41,819 bases of DNA from a virus. How positions within the stretch are numbered: position 1 is the stretch's first letter; each line of letters starts with the position of its first letter. Position numbers and translations under genes: made by a program. Location of the stretch: positions 1 to 41,819 of the IMG/VR virus record IMGVR_UViG_3300046010_014142. One strand, 5' to 3'. Shown here piece after piece: positions 3,453 to 41,423 of this stretch. The notes under the pieces are model-generated. The model saw only the letters and a program-made list of their open reading frames with translations, was not told where the DNA came from and ran no database searches.

Positions 3453-3459
3453 TATTTAT
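3453..3459 (+). promoter_or_regulatory. TATTTAT motif (candidate late promoter) for the 3487 gene
   Basis: TATTTAT lies 27 bases before the ATG at 3487, in the gap after the sigma-factor gene. It is one of 13 occurrences placed 4-29 bases before start codons in this window. Confidence 0.45.
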
Positions 3460-3486
3460 TTAAATAAAAACAAAAAATAATTTGTT

Positions 3487-3756
3487 ATGAAAGAATTTAT
3501 CAAAAAGAATTTTACCGTAATTGTTCTTGTGATTGCGGTGTTGAGTTTCTTCAAAAGTTGTGGAGATGCTCGTACTTTGTCAAACATCAATAAAAAAATG
3601 GAAACCTTGGTTACTAAGGAAGACATGATGAAAGAACTCAAAAAAGAAGGTTTGAAATCTGAAAAGAGAATGATACAATCAACAGATAGAAAGATGTTGG
3701 ATGTCAACAGACAAACACAAATTGATGAGGAGTTAAAGAAATTAGAAAACAACTAA
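3487..3756 (+). CDS. Small membrane-anchored coiled-coil protein
   Basis: An 89-residue protein with one N-terminal transmembrane helix (about residues 9-24, FTVIVLVIAVLSFF) preceded by Lys residues, then a Lys/Glu-rich helical domain likely to be a coiled coil. This is the layout of a bitopic protein with its C-terminus probably outside the cytoplasm, seen in spanin-like and other lysis-region proteins. It is the first gene of a tight run (3487-6577) that includes an amidase, and the next gene starts two bases after its stop. No family recognised. Confidence 0.7.
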   Translation: MKEFIKKNFTVIVLVIAVLSFFKSCGDARTLSNINKKMETLVTKEDMMKELKKEGLKSEKRMIQSTDRKMLDVNRQTQIDEELKKLENN

Positions 3757-3757
3757 T

Positions 3758-4477
3758 ATGAATTGGTTCCAAAGAAATTTCAGGGCAATTATTTATGTAG
3801 CATTTTTGGTACCAATTTTAACGGTTGCCTTTGTTTCTATCTCACACGTAACAACTTGGTATGGTATAACAAATCCTGTAAGTTGGGCAATTTATCTATC
3901 AATTGGTATTGAAATTGCTGCGTTGGCTGCTTTAGCTGCCATATCGGCTAGTATGGGTAAGAAAGTTTATTTACCATTTGGTATAGTAACCTTGATTCAA
4001 TTCTTGGGTAACATTTTTTTCGCTTATCAATATATCGATATTAACAGTTTGATGTTTCAGAGTTGGGTTGAAATGGTTGACCCAATTGTATCGTATATTG
4101 GTGTTGAATCAGGTAATATGATTTCACACAAAAGATTCTTAGCATTTTTTGCTGGTGGAATGTTACCATTAATTTCTCTTTCGTTTCTTCATATGTTAGT
4201 TAAGTTTGAAGAGGAGGAGAAGAATAAACCCAAAGTTGTTGAATTTGATATAGACACAATGTCTAAAGAGGCTGGAAAGAAAGAGGCTGAAATTCTTAAC
4301 GAAGAAAAAGAAATTCAACCAATACATCCCACTTCTGAAGAATTAGAAAAACTCGAAAGTGTCTTACAAGAAATTACAAACTCAAAGTTTTCTACGTTAG
4401 TTGAAAATCAAGAAGAACAAGTTGACGAATCTTCACCTGATAAAAAAGTATTGAAATATTCAAGTAGAAATGGTTGA
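3758..4477 (+). CDS. Four-helix integral membrane protein with acidic cytoplasmic tail
   Basis: A 239-residue protein with four predicted transmembrane helices (about residues 9-29, 42-64, 70-92 and 126-148) followed by an approximately 90-residue Glu-rich soluble tail. The helix bundle next to an amidase gene makes a holin or another membrane-lesion protein possible, but the long acidic tail is unusual for a holin and I recognise no family. It overlaps the amidase ATG by eight bases, so translation of the two is probably coupled. Confidence 0.75.
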   Translation: MNWFQRNFRAIIYVAFLVPILTVAFVSISHVTTWYGITNPVSWAIYLSIGIEIAALAALAAISASMGKKVYLPFGIVTLIQFLGNIFFAYQYIDINSLMFQSWVEMVDPIVSYIGVESGNMISHKRFLAFFAGGMLPLISLSFLHMLVKFEEEEKNKPKVVEFDIDTMSKEAGKKEAEILNEEKEIQPIHPTSEELEKLESVLQEITNSKFSTLVENQEEQVDESSPDKKVLKYSSRNG

Positions 4478-5087
4478 GATAATTCCATACGGGAATTTCA
4501 AGGGTGATGGTAAATCCAAAAGAAAAAAGCAAATAATATTGTGTCATACTTCTAGAGAGGTTGGGGAATACCTAACCTCTCTTAAGTTTAGGAGTTATGG
4601 TAAGTATGATAAAATACCTCACTACGTTGTAAGTAGAGATGGTAAAATCCTACAACTTTTAGAATCAAAAGATACTTCAAATTTATTTTCATTTTCAACG
4701 ATGAAAAGAGATGGGGTTATTGTTTGTTTGGAAAATTTGGGGTGGTTAAATAAAAAGCCGTTAACTAGCCACTATGTTAATTGGTTAGGTAATATTTATA
4801 AAGAAGAAATCTACGAAAAAAAATGGAGAGATTATAATTTTTGGCAACCTTACACTGATGAGCAAATTAAAAGTACTGCTAATTTGTGTAAAATGTTGTG
4901 TGAAAATTTACTCATTCCAAAAAAGTTTGTAGGACACAATGTGAAAGTCGATGGTGCTGAATTATTTCATGGTATTGCAACAAGAAGTAATTATCATCAC
5001 AGATTTACTGATTTGAGTCCGGCATTTAATTTTGAAGGTTTTAAAAAAGAATTAGACTATGAACAACTACATGAACGAGAGGTATGA
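4470..5087 (+). CDS. N-acetylmuramoyl-L-alanine amidase-like protein (Amidase_2 fold), probable endolysin
   Basis: A 205-residue protein. IILCHTS (His26), PHYVVSRDGKILQLL (residues 50-64) and the later KKFVGHNV (His156) have the order of an Amidase_2/T7-lysozyme-like zinc amidase: first zinc ligand, substrate-strand GxI-Q-L, an Asn-rich middle segment, the GH motif, and a final loop (TDLSPAFNF, about 180-188) where the usual third ligand Cys/Asp would lie (Asp181 is the candidate). It would cut the bond between the glycan and the stem peptide of peptidoglycan. There is no signal peptide, as expected for a holin-released endolysin. It sits between membrane-protein genes. The sequence is divergent, so activity is likely but not certain. 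Confidence 0.75.
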   Translation: MVEIIPYGNFKGDGKSKRKKQIILCHTSREVGEYLTSLKFRSYGKYDKIPHYVVSRDGKILQLLESKDTSNLFSFSTMKRDGVIVCLENLGWLNKKPLTSHYVNWLGNIYKEEIYEKKWRDYNFWQPYTDEQIKSTANLCKMLCENLLIPKKFVGHNVKVDGAELFHGIATRSNYHHRFTDLSPAFNFEGFKKELDYEQLHEREV

Positions 5088-5634
5088 CAACATTAAAGAG
5101 TTGGTTAAACAATCAAGATTAATCAACGAACAACTTAACGCCGAGAAATTAGGACCAATAAATGTTGCCAAAGACATTGAGGCAAAAATTGGTGATGATT
5201 ATGAAACAGCATTAGACTCCTCAAAAGAGAAAGAACAAGAAACTGAATACGTTCAAAGATATAGAATCTCAGGTTCAATATTGGCGATTCACGGTAAAGA
5301 AAAGTCGGACACTGATATCACAACTGATGATAAAGTTGCCTTCCAAGATACTTTGGATGAATTTACAAATGAAGTATCTGACTTGGTAGACTTTAATCAA
5401 CTTAATGTTTATCCAAGTACTGTTGAGTGGTCAGGTAAAATTATTGACCACGACATTGAATTTATTTATACTATTGGTGAAGACAGTGGAATTTACATCA
5501 ATGGTAACATGTTAAAAATTGATGATGATACTTTAGAGATGATTAACAAGTTAAAAAGTTTTTACGAGAAATTTAAATCAAGGTGGTCTGGTGTATTGGC
5601 ATCAAGAAAACAAGCTCCTGAGGATAATGAATAA
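5059..5634 (+). CDS. Conserved-looking soluble protein, unknown function
   Basis: A 191-residue acidic protein with an N-terminal helical part (about 1-70) and a beta-rich C-terminal part (RYRISGSILAIHG and WSGKIIDHDIEFIYTI). It has no signal peptide or membrane helix. It overlaps the end of the amidase gene by 29 bases and the following spanin-like gene by eight bases, so it belongs to the same operon. I do not recognise a family. Confidence 0.7.
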   Translation: MNNYMNERYDNIKELVKQSRLINEQLNAEKLGPINVAKDIEAKIGDDYETALDSSKEKEQETEYVQRYRISGSILAIHGKEKSDTDITTDDKVAFQDTLDEFTNEVSDLVDFNQLNVYPSTVEWSGKIIDHDIEFIYTIGEDSGIYINGNMLKIDDDTLEMINKLKSFYEKFKSRWSGVLASRKQAPEDNE

Positions 5635-5992
5635 CGTTGTTGAATTTATAAAGTTTAATTGGAAAACAATACTGAAAGGGTTGTTTGCTATTATTGTTTT
5701 ATGGTATTTGATTCAAATTACAACGGTCGTTAAAATGGGTAAGGAGAATAGAAAAGAATTAAAACAATTAGATGAACATATAAAAATGGTCGAATTTCAA
5801 CAGGAGTTAATCCAATCTGAAATTGAAACTGTTAATGAGGAAATCAAAGTTGTTGAAAACAGGGTTGAAACCATAAAAGAAACTAAAATTGAAGTTGGTA
5901 ATGAATTTAGTAAAAAAATTAGTGATGCTTCTAAGTATGGTCATGTTGAGCTCGACAGGTTTTTCGCAGACCGTTACAAAGAATTATACTGA
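5627..5992 (+). CDS. Bitopic coiled-coil protein, candidate inner-membrane spanin
   Basis: The ATG at 5627 (MNNVVEFIKFNW) is preferred over the in-frame start at 5591, which lies deep in the previous gene. The 121-residue product has one N-terminal transmembrane helix (about residues 14-33, ILKGLFAIIVLWYLIQI) and then a long Glu/Lys coiled coil, ending with an aromatic tail (DRFFADRYKELY). This is the topology of an i-spanin. Its 3' end overlaps the next gene, in another frame, by about 90 bases, as in Rz/Rz1 pairs. Function is inferred from topology, overlap and the nearby amidase. Confidence 0.65.
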   Translation: MNNVVEFIKFNWKTILKGLFAIIVLWYLIQITTVVKMGKENRKELKQLDEHIKMVEFQQELIQSEIETVNEEIKVVENRVETIKETKIEVGNEFSKKISDASKYGHVELDRFFADRYKELY

Positions 5993-6332
5993 CACTCAAA
6001 AAATAGTTTTACCTGTTCCTGTGGCAAAACAGATAGTAATTGATTTACTTCGTGGTGATTCCGCCATGACACAATTGAAATTATCCAACAATCACATTGT
6101 TGAACTTGAAAAAGTGGTAGAGTTGAAAGATACGGTAATAACTAAAATGAAACTCAAAGAAGAGAATTATAATACAATTATATCTGATGAAAGACGTAAA
6201 AATGAAATCTATCAGAGTGAATTGAAGAGTACTCAAAAGGAATTGAAAAAAATCAAAGCCAAGAGAACTTTTACTAATATAATTTCTGCAGTTCTTATAG
6301 GAACATTAACATACATGTACATAACAAAATAA
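5901..6332 (+). CDS. Secreted coiled-coil protein with C-terminal membrane helix, candidate spanin partner
   Basis: The ATG at 5901 gives a convincing Sec signal peptide: basic MNLVKK, a Leu/Met/Val core, and the end STGFSQ, similar to the SFAQ/GFSQ ends of Bacteroidetes signal peptides. An upstream TTG at 5889 only adds four residues. The mature part is a Lys/Glu coiled coil and ends in a hydrophobic helix (FTNIISAVLIGTLTYMYI). A protein with a cleaved signal and a C-terminal membrane anchor could act alone as a spanning lysis protein or pair with the overlapping upstream product. There is no lipobox Cys, so it is not a classic Rz1 lipoprotein. 143 residues. Confidence 0.65.
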   Translation: MNLVKKLVMLLSMVMLSSTGFSQTVTKNYTDTQKIVLPVPVAKQIVIDLLRGDSAMTQLKLSNNHIVELEKVVELKDTVITKMKLKEENYNTIISDERRKNEIYQSELKSTQKELKKIKAKRTFTNIISAVLIGTLTYMYITK

Positions 6333-6577
6333 TGGCACTTACAAGTGGTGAAGTAAAAGAAGTTGAGGTATTGGTTAGGAAAGAAATGAAAAGTTTTCTT
6401 GAGAGTAATACTATCAAGCAATTTGAAGATAAATTAATTGAAAGAATTGCAAAAGAGATTAAAAGAGGTAAACTTGAAGGTGATGTTAAAGATATTACTT
6501 TGAGAATGTTTCGAGAGTTCTATCAGTTTATGTGGATGAATAGGAGTTATTGGGAACCAAGACTTAAAAATGCTTAA
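6332..6577 (+). CDS. Small helical protein, unknown function
   Basis: An 81-residue, charged, probably all-helical protein (EVKEVEVLVRKEMKSFL) ending in an aromatic segment (REFYQFMWMNRSYW). The ATG shares its first base with the last base of the upstream TAA stop (TAATG). It comes just before two likely virion proteins. No family recognised. Confidence 0.65.
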   Translation: MALTSGEVKEVEVLVRKEMKSFLESNTIKQFEDKLIERIAKEIKRGKLEGDVKDITLRMFREFYQFMWMNRSYWEPRLKNA

Positions 6578-6579
6578 TT

Positions 6580-7317
6580 ATGGATAGTTCAGAGAATATG
6601 TTTAAAAAGGGTTTGGAGAATGCATATGTCAAAGACCCAACAGTATCAAAACAATTTGACGTTATGAAAGATATGTTTAATTACTCAAGTGAGATGAGTG
6701 AAGAAAATTCTGAAACAACAGAAGTCACTGGTTCAGGTTCATCTGGAGCCTTTTCGGCACCTTTATTTGGAGAGGGTGAAACAACTGAAAGTGAGAAAAT
6801 ACCGGGAGGAATGTCCAAAAATATGTCAATCAAGGACATAGCAAAAAAACATTCTAAAAAAGATTCTTTTGATAAAACATTATCTCATCTTAAGAGTGAG
6901 ATTGTTAAAGGTACTAAAGTTGAAATGGAACACACTTCAGACCCTGTCATTGCTTTTGAAATTGCTAAAGACCATTTGTCTGAAGACCCTGATTATTATA
7001 ACAAATTAAAAAAGATTGAAAGTAACGAGGCAACGACTTCGGCTTCAGTTGGAGCATACTCTACACCAGCATTCGTTGCTAAAAACAGTAAGAATTGGAG
7101 AGGTGGTAAAAAACCAATCTACAAAGGTGGTAAGTTTGCTCAAGTTAAGAAAAAATGTTTGACCTTTCCATATTGTAATCAAGGGGCTGGTGCGGTTGCA
7201 TACAAGGATAAGTCTTCCTTGGACGAAGCGGTTAAAAGTGCGAGTGTTCGATTAGGAGTTGAAGAACAACTTATTAAGAGAATACTTTATAATCACTTTA
7301 AAAAGAAAAAAAAGTAG
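6580..7317 (+). CDS. DUF5661-like probable virion/core protein
   Basis: A 245-residue protein. The central segment (about residues 100-150) contains KVEMEHTSDPVIAFEIAKDH followed by LSEDPDYYNKL, the E-H-T/D-P/A-I-A-x-D-H-L/D-Y-Y pattern of DUF5661, found in large phages and giant viruses. Two copies of a short motif flank it: GAFSAPLFG (about 56-64) and GAYSTPAFV (about 159-167). The C-terminal part is basic with a Cys pair (KKKCLTFPYCNQG) and ends in six Lys-rich residues. Ala/Ser/Gly-rich linkers with a basic C-terminus suggest a structural or DNA-contacting virion component, but that is inference. It lies directly before the TATTTAT motif and a second structural-looking gene. Confidence 0.7.
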   Translation: MDSSENMFKKGLENAYVKDPTVSKQFDVMKDMFNYSSEMSEENSETTEVTGSGSSGAFSAPLFGEGETTESEKIPGGMSKNMSIKDIAKKHSKKDSFDKTLSHLKSEIVKGTKVEMEHTSDPVIAFEIAKDHLSEDPDYYNKLKKIESNEATTSASVGAYSTPAFVAKNSKNWRGGKKPIYKGGKFAQVKKKCLTFPYCNQGAGAVAYKDKSSLDEAVKSASVRLGVEEQLIKRILYNHFKKKKK

Positions 7318-7334
7318 TATTACATAATTTAAGA

Positions 7335-7341
7335 TATTTAT
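7335..7341 (+). promoter_or_regulatory. TATTTAT motif (candidate late promoter) for the 7355 gene
   Basis: TATTTAT lies 13 bases upstream of the ATG at 7355 in a 37-base A/T-rich gap. Confidence 0.5.
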
Positions 7342-7354
7342 ACAAAAAAAAGAT

Positions 7355-9205
7355 ATGGACAGATTTGAAAAATATTTGGATAAATTAGTCAATAAAGTAA
7401 TTGCTGAGACAGTTGACTCCAAAGCAGATAAAATTGTTTCTGAAATTGAAAAGAAAAGTGGTTTAAAAGGAAAACAACATAAAATAGATGTTGCAGAACC
7501 AAAGGGTAAAATCACTTCGGCGGATTTCAAGAAATTAAGAACCACTAAAAAAGATATGAAAGAATATTCAATGGGTGATGACCAAATTGAAAAGGTTGAA
7601 CCTTATGGTGATTTCTCAACAGACAGTCCAAAAAAAGTTGGTAAAGTGAAGAACGTAGGTTATAACTACGAAAAAAAAGTTGCTAAAGAATTTAACGAAG
7701 AAGAAGAAATGTACTTGGGAATTGGTGACCATGGTTTTTATGATAGAATGGACAGACCGGTAAGAGATTTCGAGTTCGATTATGATGAAGAAGAATATGA
7801 TGATTTCGATGAGTTTATTTCAAAATATCCGGACCAAAGATGGTTCCGTAAAGGGAGAGGTGACGATGCGGAATTCGGTAGAGATAGTAGTGATAGAAAG
7901 TTTTGGGACATGTATAAAGAAAAATTCGGTGGACCTTTCAAACTTCGTAAAAGAAAAATGGAAGAACAAGGAGAAACTGAAGAAGGTAATGCGTTTTCAG
8001 GAGCGTTAGCAAAGGCTAAAAAAGATGGTAAGAAATCTTTTGATGTTGATGGTAAAACTTATGAGGTTACTGAAATGGAAGGATTCCATGGAGATTTTGA
8101 AGATGAGGATACTAAACTGGCTAAATTTGTTAAAGATGCTTTGAAACGTAACAGTATGTTGTTTTCTAAGGCGGACAAAGAGTTGTCAAAGAAAGACAAA
8201 CACATGAAGAATGATTTGGAAGACATGGAAGATGAAGAGTATGGAAGACACATGTGGATTGGTGAAGAAAAGAATGGTAAATTTATTCAAAAAGCAACCA
8301 AGAAAATGGAGAAAAAAGGAACATCAGGTAAATTTGGTGATTGGTGTAAGAGTCATGGTCTTGACAAAGATGGTGAAGTTACCAAAAAATGTATTGATAA
8401 GGCAATGAAGTCTGACGATTCTAAAGTAGTTAAGATGGCTAATTTTGCCAAGAACATTGGTGGATTTAAAGGTGCAAAACATGAAAGTGTTCAAATGACC
8501 GAAAATGAGATTGTTGAATTGATTGAAAGATTGGTTAATGAAGAGAAGAATAATATCGAAAAGAAAAGACCTTCAACAGAGATGGAAATGAATAAGATAT
8601 CAAATGCTAATAAAAACACTAATCAAGAGGCTTTGAAGGCAACAACTGAAAAGATGAAAAAATGGTCTAAAGACAGTAATGTTGAAGGGTATACTACAGA
8701 ACCTAAACATTTTCCAAAAGGTAATGGTGAGATGAAAGAAATGGATAAGAAGGCATATAAGGCTTCTGATGCTGTTGAAGAGTATATTGACGCATTTGCA
8801 TATCCTGGTATGACAAATTTGGTGTATGATGAAATCAAACCAAATGATGAGTGGATTGAAGCAAACATAAAGGGTTCTTCTAAGACAGGAAACGCAACTA
8901 AAGATAAAGATGGTAATGACTTAGGTAATGCGGTATCATCTGAACTTGGTGAAAAGATGTTTAAGAACTATAAAGACAATGTTTATGGTGCGGAACAAAT
9001 GAATGCATCTTATAAGAGATACCCACAACCTGTTGACCAAGCTGGTGAGAGTACCGAAGATGGGGATTTAAAATTAAAGAAAGGTGCTGCAAAATCAGAA
9101 AAGATTTTCAAACAACTTGAATCTACATCTGAGAAAGAGAATGTCTTGAATGAGCAAATTTCAAGAATGAAAAACATTGTTGGATACAAGCAAAAAACAC
9201 AATAA
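7355..9205 (+). CDS. Large charged modular protein, probable virion/core protein
   Basis: A 616-residue, very charged protein built of short modules with low-complexity linkers. Visible parts: an acidic Tyr/Asp stretch (EFDYDEEEYDDFDEF, about 140-155); the segment GNAFSGALAKAKKDGKKSF followed by VDGKTYEV (about 211-238), which I recognise as a recurring element in large-phage proteins; a Cys-containing segment KFGDWCKSHGLDKDG and KKCIDKAMKS (about 326-350); and a C-terminal tail NVLNEQISRMKNIVGYK. The tail resembles short motifs near the ends of other proteins here (INEEEKKRILGMH). Position behind a late-type motif and composition suggest an internal capsid or structural protein; no enzymatic motif is visible. 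Confidence 0.7.
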   Translation: MDRFEKYLDKLVNKVIAETVDSKADKIVSEIEKKSGLKGKQHKIDVAEPKGKITSADFKKLRTTKKDMKEYSMGDDQIEKVEPYGDFSTDSPKKVGKVKNVGYNYEKKVAKEFNEEEEMYLGIGDHGFYDRMDRPVRDFEFDYDEEEYDDFDEFISKYPDQRWFRKGRGDDAEFGRDSSDRKFWDMYKEKFGGPFKLRKRKMEEQGETEEGNAFSGALAKAKKDGKKSFDVDGKTYEVTEMEGFHGDFEDEDTKLAKFVKDALKRNSMLFSKADKELSKKDKHMKNDLEDMEDEEYGRHMWIGEEKNGKFIQKATKKMEKKGTSGKFGDWCKSHGLDKDGEVTKKCIDKAMKSDDSKVVKMANFAKNIGGFKGAKHESVQMTENEIVELIERLVNEEKNNIEKKRPSTEMEMNKISNANKNTNQEALKATTEKMKKWSKDSNVEGYTTEPKHFPKGNGEMKEMDKKAYKASDAVEEYIDAFAYPGMTNLVYDEIKPNDEWIEANIKGSSKTGNATKDKDGNDLGNAVSSELGEKMFKNYKDNVYGAEQMNASYKRYPQPVDQAGESTEDGDLKLKKGAAKSEKIFKQLESTSEKENVLNEQISRMKNIVGYKQKTQ

Positions 9206-9230
9206 ACTTTAATTAAAAAATAATTGTATT

Positions 9231-9266
9231 AAATTCTCCATAGAGACCCTATGGAGAATTTTTATA
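9231..9266 (+). terminator. Perfect 13-bp hairpin with T-run, overlapping the next start codon
   Basis: The arms AAATTCTCCATAG (9231-9243) and CTATGGAGAATTT (9249-9261) pair perfectly around AGACC and run into a T-rich stretch. It lies 25 bases after the 7355 gene and would terminate it. The 3' arm contains the ATG at 9251, so the same stem could also sequester that start codon. Confidence 0.65.
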
Positions 9267-9718
9267 ATTGGATGTCTAAGCCAATTCCACACAGTGAAGT
9301 GGAGGTATGGTTTAGTGTGCATAATATGATACCTGAAAGGATAGAACTTTTTGGGGTTATGTTTAAATCATTGGCAATTTCAATTATTGAAACGTATCTT
9401 GGTGAAGATAGTTCAGAAACAAAAATATTACTTTCAGATAAAGACAAGAAAAATCATTTTGATTGGTGTTGGAAGAAAATGGTTTCAGATTTCGAAAAAG
9501 AAAATATATTAATTGATTCTGAAGGAGACCATCAAGAGTATATGTGGAATTTTTTTCAAGATAGTTTTTATTCTCAAAAAGAGGTTAATATAAGAGAAGC
9601 GATTCCACACTTTATCGATGAATTATTTAATTTAGACACACCATTTGCAAAATCCGATTTGGATATTTTGACAGAATTATACAAAACACTTCAAAATAAA
9701 GTCATACACGTTGATTAA
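9251..9718 (+). CDS. Hypothetical protein
   Basis: A 155-residue, mildly acidic soluble protein, rich in Trp and aromatic residues (NHFDWCWKKM, EYMWNFFQDSFY). I do not recognise it. The first ATG (9251) is inside the 3' arm of a perfect hairpin; a second in-frame ATG at 9272 (MSKPIPHSEVEVWF) lies just after the hairpin and is a realistic alternative start if the hairpin is a terminator. The gene stands alone between the large structural gene and a run of small genes. Confidence 0.7.
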   Translation: MENFYNWMSKPIPHSEVEVWFSVHNMIPERIELFGVMFKSLAISIIETYLGEDSSETKILLSDKDKKNHFDWCWKKMVSDFEKENILIDSEGDHQEYMWNFFQDSFYSQKEVNIREAIPHFIDELFNLDTPFAKSDLDILTELYKTLQNKVIHVD

Positions 9719-9722
9719 TCTA

Positions 9723-9753
9723 TTGACGCAAAGACATAAACAACTTATTTTTA
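9723..9753 (+). promoter_or_regulatory. Weak Bacteroidetes-like promoter before the HC1 gene
   Basis: TTG at 9723-9725 is followed after 20 bases by TATTTTTA (9746-9753), one mismatch from TAnnTTTG. It is in the gap before the 9770 gene. The match is marginal in such AT-rich DNA. Confidence 0.25.
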
Positions 9754-9769
9754 AAAAAAATATATTAAC

Positions 9770-9943
9770 ATGGAAACTTTACAAAAAATTAAAGAAGTAA
9801 CCGAATCTCTTTCAGTTGACACAGAGAAGTTCTACAAGGGCAATAAAAGTGCTGGAACAAGAGCTCGTAAATCTGCTCAGGAATTAAAAAGTTTGTTGCA
9901 ACAACTAAGAGGAGAGATTTTGGAACATTCAAAGTCTAACTAA
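9770..9943 (+). CDS. Histone H1-like (HC1-type) small DNA-binding protein
   Basis: A 57-residue protein translated directly from the sequence. It contains the segment KFYKGNKSAGTRARKSAQEL followed by KSLLQQLRGEIL, which matches the histone-H1-like Hc1 family common in Bacteroidetes (pattern D-x-E-K-F-x-x-G-N-K-x-A-G-T-R-A-R-K). Host members are small nucleoid-associated proteins. In a phage it could coat or compact DNA, modulate host transcription or enter the capsid. Start ATG at 9770 follows an A-rich leader; the next gene begins one base after its stop. Confidence 0.8.
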   Translation: METLQKIKEVTESLSVDTEKFYKGNKSAGTRARKSAQELKSLLQQLRGEILEHSKSN

Positions 9944-9944
9944 T

Positions 9945-10124
9945 ATGTTAACTACAGATTCACTGTTTCTTTTCATATTCGTTTTTTCTTGTTTGGTACT
10001 TTGTAAAAACTCAATCAAACTAGTCGGGACCCTACTCGGTAAAGAAATTGTCTTTACTAGTAGGGACCTTACTTTTATAGGGCTTTCCTTAAGTTATATT
10101 ATCACTTACATTTTACAATCATGA
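9945..10124 (+). CDS. Two-helix small membrane protein
   Basis: A 59-residue protein with two hydrophobic helices (about residues 5-20, DSLFLFIFVFSCLVLC, and about 42-57, LTFIGLSLSYIITYIL) joined by a short Lys-containing loop. The start is one base after the HC1-like stop and its TGA overlaps the next ATG (ATGA), an arrangement typical of real coupled genes. Small two-helix proteins in phages include holins and membrane effectors; nothing here decides between them. The middle of the gene carries two near-identical palindromic repeats at the DNA level. Confidence 0.65.
   Translation: MLTTDSLFLFIFVFSCLVLCKNSIKLVGTLLGKEIVFTSRDLTFIGLSLSYIITYILQS
10019..10073 (+). repeat. Pair of operator-like direct repeats
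   Basis: ACTAGTCGGGACCCTACT (10019-10036) and ACTAGTAGGGACCTTACT (10056-10073) match at 16 of 18 positions. Each is an imperfect palindrome (AGTnGGGACCnTACT). The 37-base offset is not a multiple of three, so the repeat is not a duplicated peptide. Confidence 0.5.
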
Positions 10125-10546
10125 CACTTTACCAAATATTGAATCAATTAGAAGAGTTTTTTGTCTCTATGAGGAGACTTGAAACTCATATTTCCTTGGA
10201 TGTAAAATTCCCATCCAACTGGTCTATGCCAAAAAGTACAACTCAAGAGTTTCAAATCGTTCCTTTTGAATACAAGGAAGAAGGTTGGAGAGGAATGAGT
10301 TTTGTATGTGAATTCAACGATAAAGAAGTTGAAAAAAATTTAGGTATGATTACCAAGGTAATTAAACTTAATCGTGAAAGAGAACAGAAAGAAAAGTTAT
10401 TTCAGACTGTAGTGTCTGAATTAAAGAAAACATTTGAAAAGAGTGATTTGGAAAAATTACAAAACCTTTCATTCATTTTTAATCAACCTGAAAATTTAAA
10501 CACGGAAAATGGATTACAGGGAGAAACTATTGGATTGGCTGAATAA
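10121..10546 (+). CDS. Hypothetical protein
   Basis: A 141-residue protein with an N-terminal globular part (Trp-containing, FPSNWSMPKSTTQEF) and a helical, Lys/Glu-rich C-terminal part. The ATG overlaps the preceding TGA. The 3' end overlaps the next gene by 38 bases. No family recognised. Confidence 0.65.
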   Translation: MTLYQILNQLEEFFVSMRRLETHISLDVKFPSNWSMPKSTTQEFQIVPFEYKEEGWRGMSFVCEFNDKEVEKNLGMITKVIKLNREREQKEKLFQTVVSELKKTFEKSDLEKLQNLSFIFNQPENLNTENGLQGETIGLAE

Positions 10547-10691
10547 AGAACAGGAAAAAGACAGTTCTGAATTACAGAGAGATAAAGACAAATTCGCCAA
10601 ACAATTGATGGCGATGAGAAAAGAACAACTATTCGAAAAAGAAAAACCATCACTATGGAAAAAGATTCAAAAGCTCCTATGGGGGAGTTAG
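10509..10691 (+). CDS. Small charged helical protein
   Basis: A 60-residue, Lys/Glu/Gln-rich helical peptide ending in an aromatic, basic tail (KPSLWKKIQKLLWGS). It overlaps the genes on both sides in other frames, consistent with a compact phage operon. No family recognised; the amphipathic Trp/Lys tail could contact a membrane or a partner. Confidence 0.55.
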   Translation: MDYREKLLDWLNKEQEKDSSELQRDKDKFAKQLMAMRKEQLFEKEKPSLWKKIQKLLWGS

Positions 10692-10918
10692 AAAAATTAG
10701 CAATACTATCAGATGCTATTGGAGACCTGTTTCCTACAGGAAATCGTACTTTGGTTTTTGAGCTTGAAAAAGAAGATTACCAAAAAATGATTAGTCACTT
10801 TAGGGAAATTGATAGACATCACAAACAATTTTTAATTGAAATCTCAGGTGTGGAGTTTTTATTTATGTTAAAACCTGAGGAAGAAACCAAAGTAGATGAA
10901 ACTACCGAGGATAAGTAG
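10655..10918 (+). CDS. Small acidic protein
   Basis: An 87-residue acidic protein with a globular core (LVFELEKEDYQKMISHFREI) and an acidic C-terminal tail ([13 protein letters not shown]). It is the last plus-strand gene of this run; its 3' end overlaps the convergent minus-strand gene by 17 bases. No family recognised. Confidence 0.6.
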   Translation: MEKDSKAPMGELEKLAILSDAIGDLFPTGNRTLVFELEKEDYQKMISHFREIDRHHKQFLIEISGVEFLFMLKPEEETKVDETTEDK

Positions 10919-11549
10919 TGTACTGTCGGTAGAATAATTTTTTATCAAAACCATTCTCCTCTAAAAATTTTAATAGATACTTCTTTTGGGCGGTTGACGT
11001 ATCTTTTACAATTAAACAATCAGTTCTTTTTTGTTTGATAAAGTAATCGGTTAGTGATTCCAAAAGTCTGACAACCTCACCACCACTCTTCAATGAAAAT
11101 ATTTTGAACTCATCATCTTTTTGTATGATGAGTTTATTGTTTAATGAGTTAATCATTTTTAAACCATCTCCCTTCAAATACTTCCTAAGTAATTCTTTAG
11201 TATCAATCTTTTTACTTTGTTGGATGTCAAAAATTTTTTCCTCTTGGTTATAAACACTAATTTTAATTATACCCCACTCATTATCCAAAAGTTGTACTTT
11301 AACGTTTCTACCATACTCATCTGTGGTGTATTGAGGTATTTCAGGGTTTAACCCTCTTTCTAAAATGGCAATTTCAAACTTACATTCTTTGGTACCCTCA
11401 ACTAATTTTGGAAAAATAACAGATTGGGATTCATCTACAAGCCCTAAAAAAAACTTTTCAGTATTTTTGAAATTGTTAAATTTCTTGATTATTTTTTTCT
11501 TAACTTTATCCTTGAACAGGATAACTTGATACTTTGGATTAGACAACAT
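10902..11549 (-). CDS. Hypothetical protein, divergent from DnaJ
   Basis: A 215-residue Lys-rich protein on the minus strand, with a beta-rich middle ([21 protein letters not shown]) and a helical C-terminal part ending in [11 protein letters not shown] do not recognise a family. Its start codon (complement of 11547-11549) overlaps the ATG of dnaJ on the other strand, so the two genes have no intergenic space and any promoter must lie inside the neighbour. It converges with the preceding plus-strand gene and overlaps it by 17 bases. Confidence 0.7.
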
Positions 11550-12468
11550 GAAAAATTACTATGAAATTTTAGGGGTGAATGAAAATGCTTCCGATGAGGA
11601 AATTAAAAAGGCATATAGAAAATTGTCTAAACAATATCATCCTGATGTTAATCCTGAAGGTGCTGACCGATTCAAAGAGATTGCTGAAGCTTATGATGTC
11701 CTTTCGGACCCTCAGAAAAAAAATAGTTATCTAAGTCAAAAAAACAACCCATTTCAGGGAACGGAGTTTGAAGACTTCTTCAAGAACATGTTCCAAAAAG
11801 GAGGTAACCAACCTCAAAAGAGAAAAAATCCCGACAAGATAATTAAGGTTAATGTAACCCCGGTTGATTCATATACTGGAATTGATAAGAATATTAATTA
11901 CCAACGAAATCATGGTTGTAATGACTGTGGTGGTAGTGGGGGTGATAGAAAAATTTGTCATCACTGTGGTGGACAAGGTGTGATTACACAAGTAATGGGT
12001 TCGGGATTTCTCCAACAAGTTGTTAGGAGGGCTTGTGGACACTGTAACGGGCAAGGAAGTATTCTTACCAGATATTGTAATACTTGTTCAGGTGTTGGTA
12101 CCCGTTCTCAGTTTGAGACGGTAAAAGTATCGTTTCCTAAAAACATTGATGACGGACAATTTTTGAGATTGGCGGAGAAGGGTGATTTCTACAATGGTTT
12201 TTATGGTGACTTGATTTTACAAGTTGTGATGGACAATAACGGAGATTTCCAAAAGATGGGTAATGATTTGATTTACAATCTAAAATTAGATTATAATCAA
12301 TTGAAAGATGAGAATTATATGATACCTCACCCTGATGGTGAAATAAAGGTTCCAGCACCTAATGAATTTGATTCTAACAGACCTTTAAGGTTAAAAGGTA
12401 AAGGATACCCTACAGGGGACATGTATATCAAAATGAGGGTAAAATTTGATAGGTCTAAACTAAACTAA
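11548..12468 (+). CDS. dnaJ: DnaJ-type (class A) co-chaperone
   Basis: A 306-residue J-domain protein. The J domain (residues 1-60) starts [10 protein letters not shown] and contains the essential HPD (31-33), needed to stimulate Hsp70/DnaK ATPase. A short linker with little G/F content leads to four zinc-finger repeats (CNDCGGSG from Cys124, then [16 protein letters not shown] and CNTCSGVG), followed by a beta-rich client-binding domain ([10 protein letters not shown] and [11 protein letters not shown]). It is about 70 residues shorter than typical bacterial DnaJ, mainly in the G/F region and the C-terminal end. It likely recruits host DnaK for folding or remodelling phage proteins. The start is fixed by the conserved N-terminus and overlaps the divergent gene's start. 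Confidence 0.92.
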
Positions 12469-12477
12469 AAGGTTTGG

Positions 12478-12484
12478 TATTTAT
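12478..12484 (+). promoter_or_regulatory. TATTTAT motif (candidate late promoter) for the 12492 gene
   Basis: TATTTAT lies seven bases before the ATG at 12492. An earlier ATG at 12483 overlaps the motif itself, which favours 12492 as the start. Confidence 0.45.
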
Positions 12485-12491
12485 GATTGAT

Positions 12492-13385: not shown

Positions 13386-13615
13386 TTATTATTGTTTCGG
13401 ATTTTTCTATAATCCTCCTCAGTAATGGTGGTTCTTGATACAATCACGTAAAAATCACCACTTCGTTCAACCCAACGTTCTCTGTGAATTGGTCGCACTG
13501 GAGACACCACTTCTGTATTGTGTTGTCTTTTGTGTTTCTTCTTTCCTTTCCCGCTTTGAGCGAATGATGGTAATACCATTAATCCCATCATCATAACCAA
13601 AAATATTTTTTTCAT
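13376..13615 (-). CDS. Small secreted basic protein
   Basis: A 79-residue protein with a clear Sec signal peptide: MKKIF, a Met/Leu/Val core and the end LPSFAQ, typical of Bacteroidetes exported proteins. The mature part is Lys/Arg/His-rich (GKGKKKHKRQHN) and ends with a Thr/Glu segment and four Asn. No family recognised. It would act in the periplasm or envelope of the host. Its 3' end overlaps the convergent gene by ten bases. Upstream, the minus strand reads AATTTAT, one mismatch from the TATTTAT motif. Confidence 0.7.
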   Translation of the reverse strand: MKKIFLVMMMGLMVLPSFAQSGKGKKKHKRQHNTEVVSPVRPIHRERWVERSGDFYVIVSRTTITEEDYRKIRNNNNQL

Positions 13616-13722
13616 GTGTTTATAAATTTATTGGTTTATGGAAAGTGTTAACACTCTCTTAACATAAATATAACACAGAATACACATTAGACAACTGTCA
13701 TGAAAAATTTAACATTGGAAAC

Positions 13723-13752
13723 TTGCTTTTTGGGTTTTAAGAATTACCTTTG
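13723..13752 (+). promoter_or_regulatory. Bacteroidetes-type promoter P1 upstream of the Dam-like gene
   Basis: TTG at 13723-13725, a 19-base spacer, then TACCTTTG at 13745-13752, in a 168-base gene-free region that otherwise holds nothing I can identify. Confidence 0.55.
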
Positions 13753-31200: not shown

Positions 31201-31207
31201 ATAAATA
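31201..31207 (-). promoter_or_regulatory. TATTTAT motif (candidate late promoter) for the 30205-31194 gene
   Basis: On the minus strand TATTTAT ends six bases before the ATG at 31194, directly after the T-run of the preceding terminator. Confidence 0.45.
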
Positions 31208-31430: not shown

Positions 31431-31437
31431 ATAAATA
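31431..31437 (-). promoter_or_regulatory. TATTTAT motif (candidate late promoter) for the 47-residue gene
   Basis: On the minus strand TATTTAT lies 29 bases before the ATG at 31401. The divergent gene's motif on the plus strand starts 15 bases away, at 31452. Confidence 0.4.
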
Positions 31438-31451
31438 TAGAATGTACTGAA

Positions 31452-31458
31452 TATTTAT
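31452..31458 (+). promoter_or_regulatory. TATTTAT motif (candidate late promoter) for the 31467 gene
   Basis: TATTTAT lies eight bases before the ATG at 31467 and decides that start over an in-frame codon at 31410 that would put the motif inside the gene. Confidence 0.45.
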
Positions 31459-33928: not shown

Positions 33929-34121
33929 AGCTAAGATTGCTCGTGAGACACATTTGAAATTTGGAGAAAAATTCCTATATTCATATGTGAATGGTGAAAA
34001 GAATGGTTGGATGTCAATACTTGGATTTAAAGTGGGTTGGACAAAAGAACCTCTTTTTTCGGTTAGACATGGTTATACCAAATCAATTAAAATTAAAGAT
34101 TATTATATTACACTAAAATGA
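33903..34121 (+). CDS. Small basic hypothetical protein
   Basis: A 72-residue basic protein (MWFKLYKIRAKIARETHLKF) rich in aromatic residues (FLYSYVNGEKNGWMSILGFK). It overlaps the glutamine synthetase ATG by four bases (ATGA), so it is probably translated with it. No family recognised. Confidence 0.6.
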   Translation: MWFKLYKIRAKIARETHLKFGEKFLYSYVNGEKNGWMSILGFKVGWTKEPLFSVRHGYTKSIKIKDYYITLK

Positions 34122-35251
34122 TTTCACACATAAAACTTGAATATGTTTGGTTAGATGGATACCAACCCGAACCTAATCTTCGTAGTAAGGTTAAGGTTAT
34201 TCAGATGGATTTTGATAAAATACCACTTTGGCCTGAGACACTTCCCGTATCAATGTGTCCTGAGTGGTCCTTTGATGGTTCGTCAACCAAACAGGCTGAG
34301 GGTCATTTCTCGGATTGTATTCTTAAACCTGTTAGAGTTTATAACAATCCACTAAACAAAGTACGATTAGAGTCATATTTGGTTTTATGTGAGGTTATGC
34401 ATCCTGATGGAACACCGCACATAAGTAACACCCGTGCGGACATTGGATACGAGGAAGAAGGTCTTTGGTTTGGTTTTGAACAAGAATATACCATTATGAA
34501 AGATGGAAGACCTTTGGGTTTCCCTGAGAATGGATATCCTGAACCACAAGGAAAGTATTATTGTGGTGTGGGTAACGGTCAGGTTCATGGTCGTGAGTTT
34601 GTTGATAAACACATGGAATACTGTCTGATGGCGGGTATTGAAGTTACAGGTACCAATGCCGAGGTTCTTTTGGGTCAGTGGGAATACCAAGTGTTCTCAA
34701 AAGGAAAAGAGAAGGCTGGTGATGATTTGTGGATGTCTCGTTATATTCTACAACAGATGTCTGAAGACTACGGATTCAAAATTGAATTCCACCCAAAACC
34801 TGTCATGGGTGATTGGAACGGTTCAGGACTACACTGTAACTTCTCAAACGATAGAATGAGAAATGAAGGTGGTGAGAATTACTTTAAGAATATCTTCAGA
34901 GCGTTTGACACTCGTCATGAACTTCATATTCAAAACTATGGTTCAGATAACAATCTTCGTCTGACAGGAAAACACGAGACACAATCTATTGACAAGTTTA
35001 GTTGGGGGGTATCAGACCGTGGTTCATCAATCCGAGTTCCACTTCAAACATCTAAGGAATGGAAAGGATATGTTGAAGACCGTCGTCCGGCATCTAACGG
35101 TGACCCTTATAAAATTGTGAGGGTGATTGCTGAAACATTAGACTTTGCATTGACTCTTGATGAAATAAGTCATAATATGTTTGCGGAGGTTGATACTAAG
35201 AACTCTCCAATGAACAGGGTTTTTGAACAAACACAGAACAACTATGAGTAA
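34118..35251 (+). CDS. Glutamine synthetase, type II (eukaryote/Bacteroidetes-like)
   Basis: A 377-residue, full-length type II glutamine synthetase: glutamate plus ammonia plus ATP gives glutamine. Motifs in order: EYVWLDGYQPEPNLRSKVKV (beta-grasp), PEWSFDGSSTKQAEGHFSD, WFGFEQEYT (metal/ATP glutamates), GVGNGQVHGREFVDKHMEYC, GTNAEVLLGQWEYQV, DWNGSGLHCNFS, RLTGKHETQ, WGVSDRGSSIRVP and EDRRPASNGDPYK. All active-site residues I can check are present, so it looks active. As a phage-carried metabolic gene it could supply glutamine for nucleotide and amino-acid synthesis under nitrogen limitation. It is translationally coupled to small genes on both sides and shows the same base and codon character as its neighbours. 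Confidence 0.95.
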   Translation: MISHIKLEYVWLDGYQPEPNLRSKVKVIQMDFDKIPLWPETLPVSMCPEWSFDGSSTKQAEGHFSDCILKPVRVYNNPLNKVRLESYLVLCEVMHPDGTPHISNTRADIGYEEEGLWFGFEQEYTIMKDGRPLGFPENGYPEPQGKYYCGVGNGQVHGREFVDKHMEYCLMAGIEVTGTNAEVLLGQWEYQVFSKGKEKAGDDLWMSRYILQQMSEDYGFKIEFHPKPVMGDWNGSGLHCNFSNDRMRNEGGENYFKNIFRAFDTRHELHIQNYGSDNNLRLTGKHETQSIDKFSWGVSDRGSSIRVPLQTSKEWKGYVEDRRPASNGDPYKIVRVIAETLDFALTLDEISHNMFAEVDTKNSPMNRVFEQTQNNYE

Positions 35252-36763: not shown

Positions 36764-36770
36764 TATTTAT
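36764..36770 (+). promoter_or_regulatory. TATTTAT motif before a 15-codon reading frame
   Basis: TATTTAT lies eight bases before an ATG at 36779, in the gap after the DNA methyltransferase. Confidence 0.35.
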
Positions 36771-36890: not shown

Positions 36891-37721
36891 ATGAAAAACA
36901 CAAAAACCTACAACGAACTGGTACAAAAAATGAGACAATTCTTCCTTGACAGGAATTTTCTTGAAGTACCGACACAGTCAAGATTATCAATCCTCGCAGC
37001 TTGCGAGAATCCTCACTCAGTAAAAACGTTTGAGTACAACGGAGAAATTTGGCCTTTACCACAGACAGGTCAAATGTGGTTAGAGTACGAATTACTCAAA
37101 AACCCTCAATGGGATGGAGTTTTCTGTGTATCAACTTCCTATCGTGAAGAAAAAAACCCAATCCCCGGTAGACATGAAATGATTTTCCCGATGTTTGAAT
37201 TTGAATCAAAAGGTGGGATTAAAGAACTTCTTAAGTTAGAGTCTGATTTACTTGAATATTTGGGTTTTGAAAAAGAGGTAGAGGTTAAATATGAAGATGT
37301 TTGTGAAGAATACGGTGGAGTTCCTATTTTAGAAAATGAACATGAACAAAGAATGTGGCAAGAAAAGGGTCCTGTGGTATCACTACAGTATTTCCCAAAA
37401 AGAACAAATCCATTTTGGAATATGAAACACAAAGATGGTGAGATATTCAACAAAGTTGATGTTATCCTTTACGGTCAAGAAACAATTGGTTCTGCTGAAC
37501 GTTCATGTGATGTTGAGAAAATGAGAGAAATGTTCTACACGATTGAAGGTGGTGGTTATTCCGCCAAGTTGTTTGAACTATTTGGTAAAGACAGGGTAGA
37601 AAAAGAACTCGAAGAGTTCCTAACAATGAATTTCTTTGAAAGATTTGGTGGTGGAATTGGAATGACTCGTATGGCACGAGCATTTGAGTTACTCAAACAA
37701 GAACAACTTGAATTGGTTTAA
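36891..37721 (+). CDS. Class II aminoacyl-tRNA synthetase-like enzyme, catalytic core only (AsnRS/AspRS or asparagine-synthetase type)
   Basis: A 276-residue class II synthetase core without an anticodon-binding domain. FFLDRNFLEVPTQS is the motif 1 region; LPQTGQMWLEYEL matches the L-x-x-S/T-G-Q substrate loop of AspRS/AsnRS; VSTSYREEKNPIPGRHEMIF is motif 2 (Arg85, His95), and GGGIGMTRMARAF is motif 3 (Arg260). Complete motifs suggest it still activates an amino acid with ATP. Stand-alone AsnRS/AspRS-like cores include the archaeal asparagine synthetase related to AsnRS, which makes asparagine, and EpmA-like enzymes, which modify a protein lysine. I favour the AsnRS/AspRS branch from the TGQ loop and motif 2. 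Its nearness to glutamine synthetase fits an amide-metabolism role, which is inference. Confidence 0.75.
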   Translation: MKNTKTYNELVQKMRQFFLDRNFLEVPTQSRLSILAACENPHSVKTFEYNGEIWPLPQTGQMWLEYELLKNPQWDGVFCVSTSYREEKNPIPGRHEMIFPMFEFESKGGIKELLKLESDLLEYLGFEKEVEVKYEDVCEEYGGVPILENEHEQRMWQEKGPVVSLQYFPKRTNPFWNMKHKDGEIFNKVDVILYGQETIGSAERSCDVEKMREMFYTIEGGGYSAKLFELFGKDRVEKELEEFLTMNFFERFGGGIGMTRMARAFELLKQEQLELV

Positions 37722-37876: not shown

Positions 37877-37883
37877 ATAAATA
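37877..37883 (-). promoter_or_regulatory. TATTTAT motif (candidate late promoter) for the 50-residue gene
   Basis: On the minus strand TATTTAT lies six bases before the ATG at 37870. Confidence 0.45.
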
Positions 37884-37908: not shown

Positions 37909-37915
37909 TATTTAT
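37909..37915 (+). promoter_or_regulatory. TATTTAT motif (candidate late promoter) for the 37931 gene
   Basis: TATTTAT lies 15 bases before the ATG at 37931. It is divergent from the motif at 37877-37883, with 25 bases between them. Confidence 0.5.
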
Positions 37916-39238: not shown

Positions 39239-39646
39239 ATGAGTAAATTTCTTATTAACGAAGAAGAGAAGAAAAGAATTCTCGGAATGCACTTAAATGC
39301 CACTTCAAGACAATATCTTAAGGAGGATTTTAATAATTCCATGACAACAATCGAGAGATATAATTACAATATGGCAATCCAATGTTTCTTGAATAAAAAA
39401 GGAGTTAAGGACGATGCTGGAAAACCTCTTGTAATGGACGGTTCAATAGGTAATTGGCCTAAGTCCAAAAGTGCTCAAGCAGTTGCTACTTATCAAAATA
39501 TGATTAAGGTTTATCCTGCTGATGGTGTTTGGGGTGAAGACACAATGGATAAAATGCCAGAAAATGACAAAGTTATTTTTAAACAATGTGTTTCTGACCA
39601 TGGAGATTTATTCCAAAAAGTTATACATTATTTTGGTTGGGACTAA
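39239..39646 (+). CDS. Peptidoglycan-binding-like protein with virion-type leader
   Basis: A 135-residue protein. It begins MSKFLINEEEKKRILGMHLN, a leader-like motif echoed in the tail of the 616-residue structural protein. Residues about 45-105 (AIQCFLNKKGVKDDAG, VMDGSIGNWPKSKSAQAVAT, YQNMIKVYPADGVWGEDTMD) match the PG_binding_1 pattern with its two DGxWG-like turns. It could be a virion-borne domain that docks on peptidoglycan during entry or in the lysis machinery. Its TAA overlaps the next ATG (TAATG). Confidence 0.72.
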   Translation: MSKFLINEEEKKRILGMHLNATSRQYLKEDFNNSMTTIERYNYNMAIQCFLNKKGVKDDAGKPLVMDGSIGNWPKSKSAQAVATYQNMIKVYPADGVWGEDTMDKMPENDKVIFKQCVSDHGDLFQKVIHYFGWD

Positions 39647-41058
39647 TGAAAAAGGTAATTAAAGAATCGGGTTTACGTGACATCAAAGCTTTGGCGAAAA
39701 GATACCCAAAGGCTAAGATATATTTTCACCAAGATTTAGATGGTGTAACAACTGCAATTGCAATGAAAAAATATCTTGAGGACAATGGTATTGATGTCGT
39801 AGATTCTGAAGTAATTCAATATGGTGAAAAAGAGTTCTCCGTTAAAAAACCTGATGCGAGTGGTGATGTGATGCCAGTCCTTGTGGATTTTGCTCACGGT
39901 AAACCAATGTTTGTGATTCACACAGACCATCACGACACTCAAGTGGGTGCTGAGAAAGATGCCGCTAAATCGTTCCGTCAGGCTCGTTCTAATGTTGAAA
40001 CCATTTCACAAATCATTTCTCCAAAAGAACTATTCCCAAGTAAAGATATTTTGTTGATTTCGACAGTGGATTCAGCAGACTTTGCAAGACAAGATTTAAC
40101 AACTCAAGATGTTGTTAATTTCTTATTTAGACTAGATAAGGAAAAGGATTTATCACGAAACAAGATGTTGATGGGACTTGTGACAAACAAGTTATTATTG
40201 GCATTTAAAAACAAAAAAGGTTTTTTAGAGTCATTAGTGATGGATTCAGAACCTTCATTATATTCGATACTCAACAACATTAAAAAATGGATGAGTGAGA
40301 ATACTCGTGAGACCCCTGAGAGATTACAAAGAAATGCTAAAGAATATATGGATTCAATGGCAAAGCATCCGAACGTTAAAGTTGAAGATGGTATTATCCT
40401 TCAATACGGGATGGGTTCATTAAAAGGTACTGGTTCTTACGATAGATACACACCATTTAGAAATAACCCTGAGGCGGATTTCTTAATTATTATGTGGCCT
40501 TTAGGGTTAGTTCAAGCGTCTTGTAATCCATTCAAGAAAGATAGAGAACTTAAAGGTGTTAACTTAGGTGAGATTAAAGATGAGGTATTGGAAAAGTGGA
40601 AGTCACAACTTCAAGATAGAACTATTCCATTATCAACAATCAAATACATTGCAGAAACTGCCATGGGTCCTGAATCAGTAGGATTCACATTCAAGGACTT
40701 TGATGCAATCTACGGTGGTAAAATTATGATGATGGATGGTGGTGAACAGATATTGGAAAAGTTAAGACCAATTGTTGACAAACCATTTTCAGAACTAACT
40801 GAACCTGAAAAAGAAACTTTGGATAAGATTGGTGTAAATGCTTGGGATTTGATTCAAGCAAACTCAGGTGGTCACAAATGTATTACAAACATTTCTGGTT
40901 TGAACTTTTTGGGTAGAGCTAAAAGACCATCTACAGGACCATACAAGTATGACCCTGAAAGAGATGATGCTCCATACATCAAATTTGTTAAGATGATTGG
41001 TCAGGAATTCTTTAGAGTGTTGAAAGAAAAGATTGCTCAGAGCAAACAACAGAATTAA
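39646..41058 (+). CDS. DHH-family phosphoesterase (RecJ/NrnA-like)
   Basis: A 470-residue protein starting MKKVIKESGLRDIKALAK (ATG 39646; a TTG at 39637 adds only three residues). HQDLDGVTTAIAMK (28-41), LVDFAHG (79-85), IHTDHHDTQ (91-99, with the DHH signature) and STVDSADF are the DHH metal-binding motifs. The segment NSGGHKCITNISGLNF near the C-terminus is the GGH substrate-binding motif of the DHHA1 part. The family hydrolyses phosphodiester bonds in single-stranded DNA, short oligonucleotides or cyclic dinucleotides; which applies here is open. The N-terminal I-K-E|S leader, if cut, would put this enzyme inside the virion. Cyclic-nucleotide degradation to counter host defence is one attractive but untested role. 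Confidence 0.85.
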   Translation: MKKVIKESGLRDIKALAKRYPKAKIYFHQDLDGVTTAIAMKKYLEDNGIDVVDSEVIQYGEKEFSVKKPDASGDVMPVLVDFAHGKPMFVIHTDHHDTQVGAEKDAAKSFRQARSNVETISQIISPKELFPSKDILLISTVDSADFARQDLTTQDVVNFLFRLDKEKDLSRNKMLMGLVTNKLLLAFKNKKGFLESLVMDSEPSLYSILNNIKKWMSENTRETPERLQRNAKEYMDSMAKHPNVKVEDGIILQYGMGSLKGTGSYDRYTPFRNNPEADFLIIMWPLGLVQASCNPFKKDRELKGVNLGEIKDEVLEKWKSQLQDRTIPLSTIKYIAETAMGPESVGFTFKDFDAIYGGKIMMMDGGEQILEKLRPIVDKPFSELTEPEKETLDKIGVNAWDLIQANSGGHKCITNISGLNFLGRAKRPSTGPYKYDPERDDAPYIKFVKMIGQEFFRVLKEKIAQSKQQN

Positions 41059-41408
41059 TCAAAGATGAATTTTATTTCATCACCTTTGTTAATTCCCAAA
41101 TCTTTGGAAGAACCTCCAGTAATTTCAAGTATCACATACCCACGACCACAGTAAGAGTCGCAGTCTTCTTTATCACCACAAGGTAAACAATTATGGTGGA
41201 TTTTAGATATAATTTGGTTATCAATAAAAATTATATCCAACGGTATGGTACAGTTTTTCATCCAAAAACAATTTGTGTAGTCATTCATCAAAAATAACAT
41301 TCCGTTAAAATTGTCGTTGAAAGTTTTACCCATCATACCAATTGCACGACTTCTATTATCATCGGCAATCTTCACCTTGAAAATGTTTTCACCTATTTTT
41401 ACTTTCAT
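41055..41408 (-). CDS. DUF192 protein
   Basis: A 117-residue minus-strand protein with the DUF192 core: GMMGKTFNDNFNGMLFLMND, FWMKNCTIPLDIIFIDN and VILEITGGSSKDLG. Host members usually carry a signal peptide; this one has none, so it is probably cytoplasmic or packaged. An extra Cys cluster (CLPCGDKEDCDSYCGRG) lies before the last strands and could bind metal. Its stop shares TTAA with the DHH gene stop, and its start faces the NUDIX gene across a palindromic motif. Confidence 0.85.
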   Translation of the reverse strand: MKVKIGENIFKVKIADDNRSRAIGMMGKTFNDNFNGMLFLMNDYTNCFWMKNCTIPLDIIFIDNQIISKIHHNCLPCGDKEDCDSYCGRGYVILEITGGSSKDLGINKGDEIKFIFD

Positions 41409-41411
41409 GAT

Positions 41412-41423
41412 TATTTATAAATA
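41412..41423. promoter_or_regulatory. Palindromic TATTTATAAATA, candidate bidirectional late promoter
   Basis: The 12-base perfect palindrome carries the TATTTAT motif on both strands. It lies four bases before the plus-strand NUDIX ATG (41423, plus-strand motif ending at 41418) and eight bases before the minus-strand DUF192 ATG (41408). Confidence 0.5.

Follow-up and report, generated by a model that had tools for sequence, protein, structure and literature searches.

The stretch of DNA analysed here (the window) is a 41.8-kb fragment of a virus genome, positions 1 to 41,819 of IMG/VR record IMGVR_UViG_3300046010_014142, in which the heptamer TATTTAT stands shortly before 13 start codons. 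The window encodes a full-length sigma-70 factor, three very long collagen-like fibre genes, methyltransferases and one DnaJ; no Rfam family and no tRNA was detected when the window was searched for them. A sequence-only reading of this DNA had proposed that TATTTAT marks a candidate phage late-promoter class, and our analysis supports that proposal. We consider the heptamer to be almost certainly a promoter element.

All 13 sites that had been listed are present. With the gap defined as the number of nucleotides (nt) between TATTTAT and the ATG, and with all transcription starts being predicted positions, the first forward-strand element lies at 3453-3459 (start at ~3465; gap 27 to the ATG at 3487; ortholog gaps of 13 in relative L010 and 29 in L012), followed by those at 7335-7341 (start at ~7347; gap 13 to 7355), in an ortholog group (OG0) with the motif in 7 of 7 genomes, and at 12478-12484 (gap 7 to 12492). 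The latter is near-leaderless, its close relatives L009 and L010 have a gap of 6, and its gene could start at 12483 instead, in which case the ATG overlaps TATTTAT. The element at 14643-14649 (start at ~14655; gap 17 to 14667) belongs to OG6, where the motif is kept in 6 of 6 genomes, and the one at 19760-19766 (start at ~19772) stands 20 nt before a collagen-like tail-fibre gene at 19787, as it does in L047. Further forward-strand elements are found at 31452-31458 (gap 8 to 31467; OG16, 5 of 7 genomes), at 36764-36770 (gap 8 to 36779, an open reading frame of only 16 codons, so that the element may serve the gene at 36891 instead), at 37909-37915 (start at ~37921; gap 15 to 37931) and at 41412-41418, only 4 nt before the ATG at 41423. 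The reverse strand carries elements at 31201-31207 (gap 6 to 31194), 31431-31437 (gap 29 to 31401), 37877-37883 (gap 6 to 37870; OG11, 4 of 4 genomes, with gaps of 5, 13, 5 and 6) and 41417-41423 (gap 8 to 41408; OG19, 4 of 6 genomes). The use of both strands, as previously claimed, is clearest at 41412-41423, where two divergent elements overlap.

The whole window contains 24 copies of TATTTAT, the 13 upstream sites and 11 others, against 10.9 expected, and none of 100 shuffles reached 24. TATTTAT occurs within 40 nt before 13 of the 55 curated starts, while its reverse complement occurs before 2 of them. Dinucleotide shuffling of these 40-nt stretches (75.6% AT) left the motif before 1.19 starts on average and before no more than 6 in any of 2000 trials; AT-richness therefore fails to explain the 13 observed sites. 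TATTTAT is also the commonest 7-mer of the 40-nt upstream set and, of all 7-mers, the one most enriched before genes of the window. The sequence-only reading had described it as the reverse complement of most of the T4 late -10 box, TATAAATA, which is correct for the letters; the orientation bias, however, points to a -10 element that is read as written rather than to a T4 box read backwards.

Relatives were gathered through the sigma and DnaJ proteins of the window. Among the 13 relatives, gp23 (PF07068) scored over the cut-off in five, with a lowest E of 8e-65, and T4-type gp13, gp17, gp18, gp19, gp20, gp21 or gp25 was found in several large ones, indicating that the lineage lies within the T4 superfamily. 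gp23 is absent from the window, which is itself a fragment. Judged by gp23, Microcystis phage Mel-JY01 and Flavobacterium phage immuto (vB_FspM_immuto_2-6A) are the closest phages in isolation, and Rhodothermus phage RM378 lies further off.

In each of six large relatives (G001-G006), TATTTAT was the top upstream-enriched 7-mer, standing before 39-78 genes against 3-7 expected, and the excess over shuffled and AT-rich DNA seen in the window recurred in every large relative examined. When the genomes were pooled, only 17 of 607 genes (3%) that overlap a same-strand neighbour or lie at most 10 nt behind one carried the motif, compared with 117 of 221 (53%) where the gap to the neighbour is 25-60 nt. 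Scarcity in packed genes and frequency where space exists are what promoters heading operons should show. Absence from internal operon genes, as first stated, thus holds as a strong trend and not as a strict rule.

The presence of the motif is mostly all-or-none across 94 ortholog groups: about 17 have TATTTAT in most or all of their genomes, and 55 lack it throughout. The positive virion orthologs include gp13, gp18, gp19, gp21 and gp25, the motif lying 30-38 nt before gp18 and gp19, and the negative ones include DNA polymerase, SbcC, SbcD, primase, dUTPase and exonucleases; most replication genes lack the motif in 6 of 6 genomes. TATTTAT is therefore found before virion genes and for the most part not before early replication genes, the exceptions being the DnaB helicase, which carries it, and gp23, which has no site of its own. 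Of the claim that the genes behind the motif are mainly virion or fibre genes, the association with T4-type virion genes was borne out in the relatives and in the isolated Flavobacterium phage, and any restriction to virion genes was not. The class is probably transcribed late.

The distances from the motif to the ATG in seven genomes are bimodal, with 9 hits at 0-3 nt and a sharp peak of 109 genes at 4-6 nt; beyond a trough at 7-11 nt, a second mode of 129 lies at 12-18 nt. In the 12-18 nt class, A makes up 75, 95 and 89% of the bases at +11, +12 and +13 from the first base of the motif. This AAA occupies the position that the ATG holds in the 4-6 nt class, and both would mark one transcription start site 11-13 nt from the first base of the motif, the distance expected for an element at -12 to -6. 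At gaps of 4-6 nt, the long frame is opened by ATG 134 times and by GTG or TTG 5 times. For the gene directly after s2, a second sigma-like gene described below, TATTTAT lies exactly 4-6 nt before the ATG in 78 of 79 contigs, and the remaining upstream DNA is divergent. As in T4-type late promoters, there is no -35 element: between -40 and -20, counted from the first base of the motif, no position holds more than 0.03 bits of information.

Judging by this spacing, messages from promoters with gaps of 4-6 nt are very probably leaderless. The 4-6 nt peak lends strong support to the proposal that short gaps imply leaderless messages, although this proposal applies to only a part of the class. In the window, where bimodality is weaker than in the relatives, the gaps of 4, 6 and 6 nt (ATGs at 41423, 31194 and 37870) belong to the leaderless class, four sites at 7-8 nt may have leaders of perhaps 1-4 nt, and six gaps are longer. 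Leadered spacing prevails in the isolated phages, at the sites of Mel-JY01 and at most of those in immuto, suggesting that leaderlessness is mainly a trait of the uncultured clade that includes the window. Transcripts in cells of the probable host phylum mostly have leaders too: in Flavobacterium johnsoniae, 87% have a leader of more than 10 nt (PMC6847099). The leaderless spacing thus appears unusual for T4-like phages and also for the host, which is probably of the Bacteroidota type.

Two candidate sigma factors were found. The first, s1, is the full-length sigma-70 protein encoded at 2552-3439 on the forward strand of the window, with regions 1.2, 2 and 4 (PF00140, PF04542, PF04545). Each of the 13 relatives has such a sigma-70 region 2 protein, and eight of these also contain a weaker region 2 match, s2. 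The s2 protein aligns with the gp55 family over 115 columns (hhalign 92.2%, E 5.9e-7), which indicates homology in region 2, and among PDB sequences it matches T4 gp55 best (E 0.027). Single-protein PHROG matches are weak (E 0.016-0.076), and the Foldseek neighbours of its model are sigma factors, with region 2 fragments at TM 0.61-0.66. Relatives of s2 occur in more than 260 viral contig stretches, and a scan of genome contigs for s2 hosts returned one bacterial metagenome-assembled genome and one Prochlorococcus record, and nothing more. In both immuto, where it is KNV73_gp118, and Mel-JY01, s2 is present, TATTTAT is the top late-region motif and no PF04542 match, that is, no sigma-70-type protein, was detected, which points to s2 over s1 as the reader.

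The s2 protein is 225-257 amino acids long and, at the C-terminus, where the gp55 family has a tail that binds the sliding clamp, has a conserved additional helical domain instead. This domain (residues 150-248, L203:3448-3744) is highly conserved and was modelled with pLDDT 84, with no convincing PDB match. It was considered as a sigma region 4 domain and rejected, as hhalign gave 0.2% against region 4 of s1 and no fold matched. Consequently, the idea of a fused sigma stays speculative.

From these observations, we regard it as likely that TATTTAT defines a promoter class of a T4-superfamily lineage, that the gp55-like s2 is probably its reader and that a subset of the promoters is leaderless. 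TATTTAT, in extended form approximately R-TATTTAT-W, would lie at about -12 to -6 and be the only sequence that is recognized. The phage-coded s2, through its gp55-like region 2, would probably redirect the host RNA polymerase core to this element without a -35 contact, and transcription would begin 11-13 nt after the first T. At gaps of 4-6 nt the start would fall on the A of the AUG, while at other gaps the mRNA would begin with A(A) and have a short leader, commonly of ~7-13 nt. The phage from which the window derives would carry s2 outside the 41.8-kb fragment. A bolder version, a lineage-wide late programme run by a re-specified gp55-like sigma on TATTTAT, with about a third of the promoters leaderless and the fused domain possibly replacing the gp33 or clamp contacts, seems to us doubtful at present; such a protein would be a fused late sigma, a kind that by the T4 literature has not been found.

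Several observations weigh against this proposal. The link between s2 and the motif rests on co-occurrence, s2 is not in the window fragment, LR756508 has s2 and no TATTTAT in the 50 kb read, and RM378, which lacks s2, uses a similar TTATTTAA motif. The s2 model is only of moderate quality (pLDDT 70.7, pTM 0.40), with no Foldseek match reaching E 0.001. In 10 relatives, gp33 (PF16805) had no match at E ≤ 1, where T4 scores 6e-28, and gp45 (PF02916) had no match over the cut-off, where T4 scores 3e-35, although distant clamps could escape this search; clamp-coupled activation therefore cannot be assumed. The class is not purely one of virion genes, as the DnaB helicase has the motif in 6 of 6 genomes and PhoH has it in immuto; gp23, in turn, lacks a TATTTAT within 200 nt in three of the relatives and within 45 nt in immuto. 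In addition, gene starts came from a simple open reading frame caller, and the pool includes genomes closely related to one another.

Other explanations have to be set against the same data. That the pattern arises from chance, from AT-rich intergenic composition or from T4-type TATAAATA promoters facing the opposite way has a negligible probability: the motif does consist of A and T only and does match most of the reversed box, yet the shuffled controls and the ratio of 13 sense to 2 antisense sites refute it, and the exact spacing to the downstream ATG also speaks against it. The probable host phylum does without Shine-Dalgarno sequences and favours A at -3 and -6 (PMC6847099), so the motif might be an AU-rich Kozak-like or upstream element in the mRNA that acts in translation initiation. 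This is very improbable, because TATTTAT is concentrated where a promoter fits and not in packed genes, because the position of the AAA is fixed to the motif and not to the ATG, and because gp18 and gp19 keep the motif at a distance from their starts.

Granted a promoter, it could be read by s1 instead, which is encoded just upstream of the first site, adjoins motif-bearing genes and has a counterpart in every relative. We find this unlikely, since immuto and Mel-JY01 favour TATTTAT in their late regions with no PF04542 match, and since s1 keeps regions 2 and 4 whereas TATTTAT has no -35 partner. By eye, s1 resembles Bacteroidota sigma-A, which we take to be the reader of TTG-N-TAnnTTTG, and this resemblance counts against s1 as the reader of TATTTAT; TTG-N-TAnnTTTG sites do exist, are weakly enriched and rarely coincide with TATTTAT. 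It is also quite unlikely that the class is real and not late, namely middle or constitutive promoters at which host sigma-A tolerates TATTTAT as a TAnnTnT variant. The sites before DnaB and PhoH and the likeness to TAnnTTTG at several positions would fit such a class, but most replication genes lack the motif, and it is shared by Mel-JY01, a phage recorded from a cyanobacterium, indicating that TATTTAT follows the phage lineage.

The proteins behind the motif have some features of their own. An [ILV]xE sequence within the first 20 residues is present in 39% of leaderless, 25% of leadered and 11% of motif-less genes (Fisher 6e-14, motif versus none), with examples in the window at 7355, 12492, 14667, 37931 and 39646 and in relatives; these starts presumably resemble the T4 capsid-targeting peptides cut by gp21. 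Three relatives have an extracytoplasmic function (ECF)-type sigma gene behind TATTTAT with gaps of 4-6 nt (L195:1222-1800 on the reverse strand, which is the same gene as L137:17573-18151; L196:1222-1773, reverse; L197:1408-1953, forward). The encoded proteins begin with MKIIITESQ or MKLVLSENQ, this N-terminal tag recurs on unrelated proteins, and the sigma is possibly packaged in the virion. In the non-late regions of immuto (L283-L284), a second motif is strongly positioned: ATATTTA lies ~24-28 nt and TAATTAAAACA-like words ~9-13 nt before starts, probably as another promoter class.

Elsewhere in the window, the three fibre genes lie in tandem at 19787-30208, each of 1100-1200 codons with GAQGAQ/GPT collagen-like repeats and related C-terminal ends. 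Thioredoxin-like and glutaredoxin-like genes, identified by eye, stand side by side at 19119-19715. The gene at 34118-35251 encodes what we take, by eye, to be a glutamine-synthetase-like protein, and together with a phrog_29758 protein at 36891-37721 (E 9e-97) it forms an unusual metabolic cargo.

With the motif as a simple rule, operon heads, predicted transcript starts and genes that are probably late can be located in T4-related phages that are abundant and uncultured. A large number of leaderless phage messages is predicted as well, with a bearing on how late genes are translated in bacteria that make no use of Shine-Dalgarno sequences. The isolated Flavobacterium phage that shares TATTTAT is a place to test the promoter. 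In the open-access literature searched, with subscription papers outside its scope, TATTTAT as a phage promoter, the changed core and the frequent leaderless spacing are undescribed.

Promoters of Bacteroidota sigma-A (TTG ... TAnnTTTG), from the probable host phylum of several members, also begin their -10 element with TA; unlike them, the TATTTAT class has neither a -33 element nor a TTTG end. RM378 likewise combines a T4-type head protein with a short-gap TTATTTAA-type motif, differing in having no s2 and another sigma with a PF04542 match. Its top upstream motif (L286) is TATTTAA, within TTATTTAA, before 15 genes against 0.7 expected, many at gaps of 6-9 nt. The '-10 region adjacent to ORF' promoters of Deinococcus-Thermus (PMC12340547) similarly place a -10 element directly before the start codon and yield leaderless mRNA, although they serve bacterial genes and not a phage class.

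The closest parallel is the T4 late promoter (TATAAATA, gp55/gp33/gp45), which shares an AT-only -10 element, the lack of a -35 element, virion genes downstream and a similar predicted start distance; the lineage also shares a gp55-like sigma and T4-type gp23, gp20, gp17, gp18, gp19 and gp21. Our script, run on T4 as a method control, recovered TATAAATA with gaps mostly of 21-29 nt, against which many TATTTAT sites are leaderless by spacing. The coding-strand sequence that defines T4 late promoters at -13 to -6, TATAAATA, stands before few genes in the relatives, where TATTTAT is the top motif; moreover, gp33 and gp45 were undetected, and s2 has an extra C-terminal helical domain of no known fold. 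For these reasons, we do not claim strict membership of the T4 late class, and judge TATTTAT from its sequence context to be a newly recognized variant among T4-type late promoters that would work like one. The review of T4 late transcription, which asks why a fused late sigma has not been found, reports a near-identical consensus in several T4 relatives and one variant at -13/-12 (PMC2988020). The TATTTAT lineage suggests that this code, reported as only slightly variable, has been changed at its core. The late promoters of Aeromonas phage Aeh1 and of KVP40, 44RR and S-PM2 (PMC2988020) are likewise family variants of the T4-type late -10 element, but the change reported for them is only a/gC at -13/-12, whereas in the TATTTAT class it is the centre of the box that is changed.

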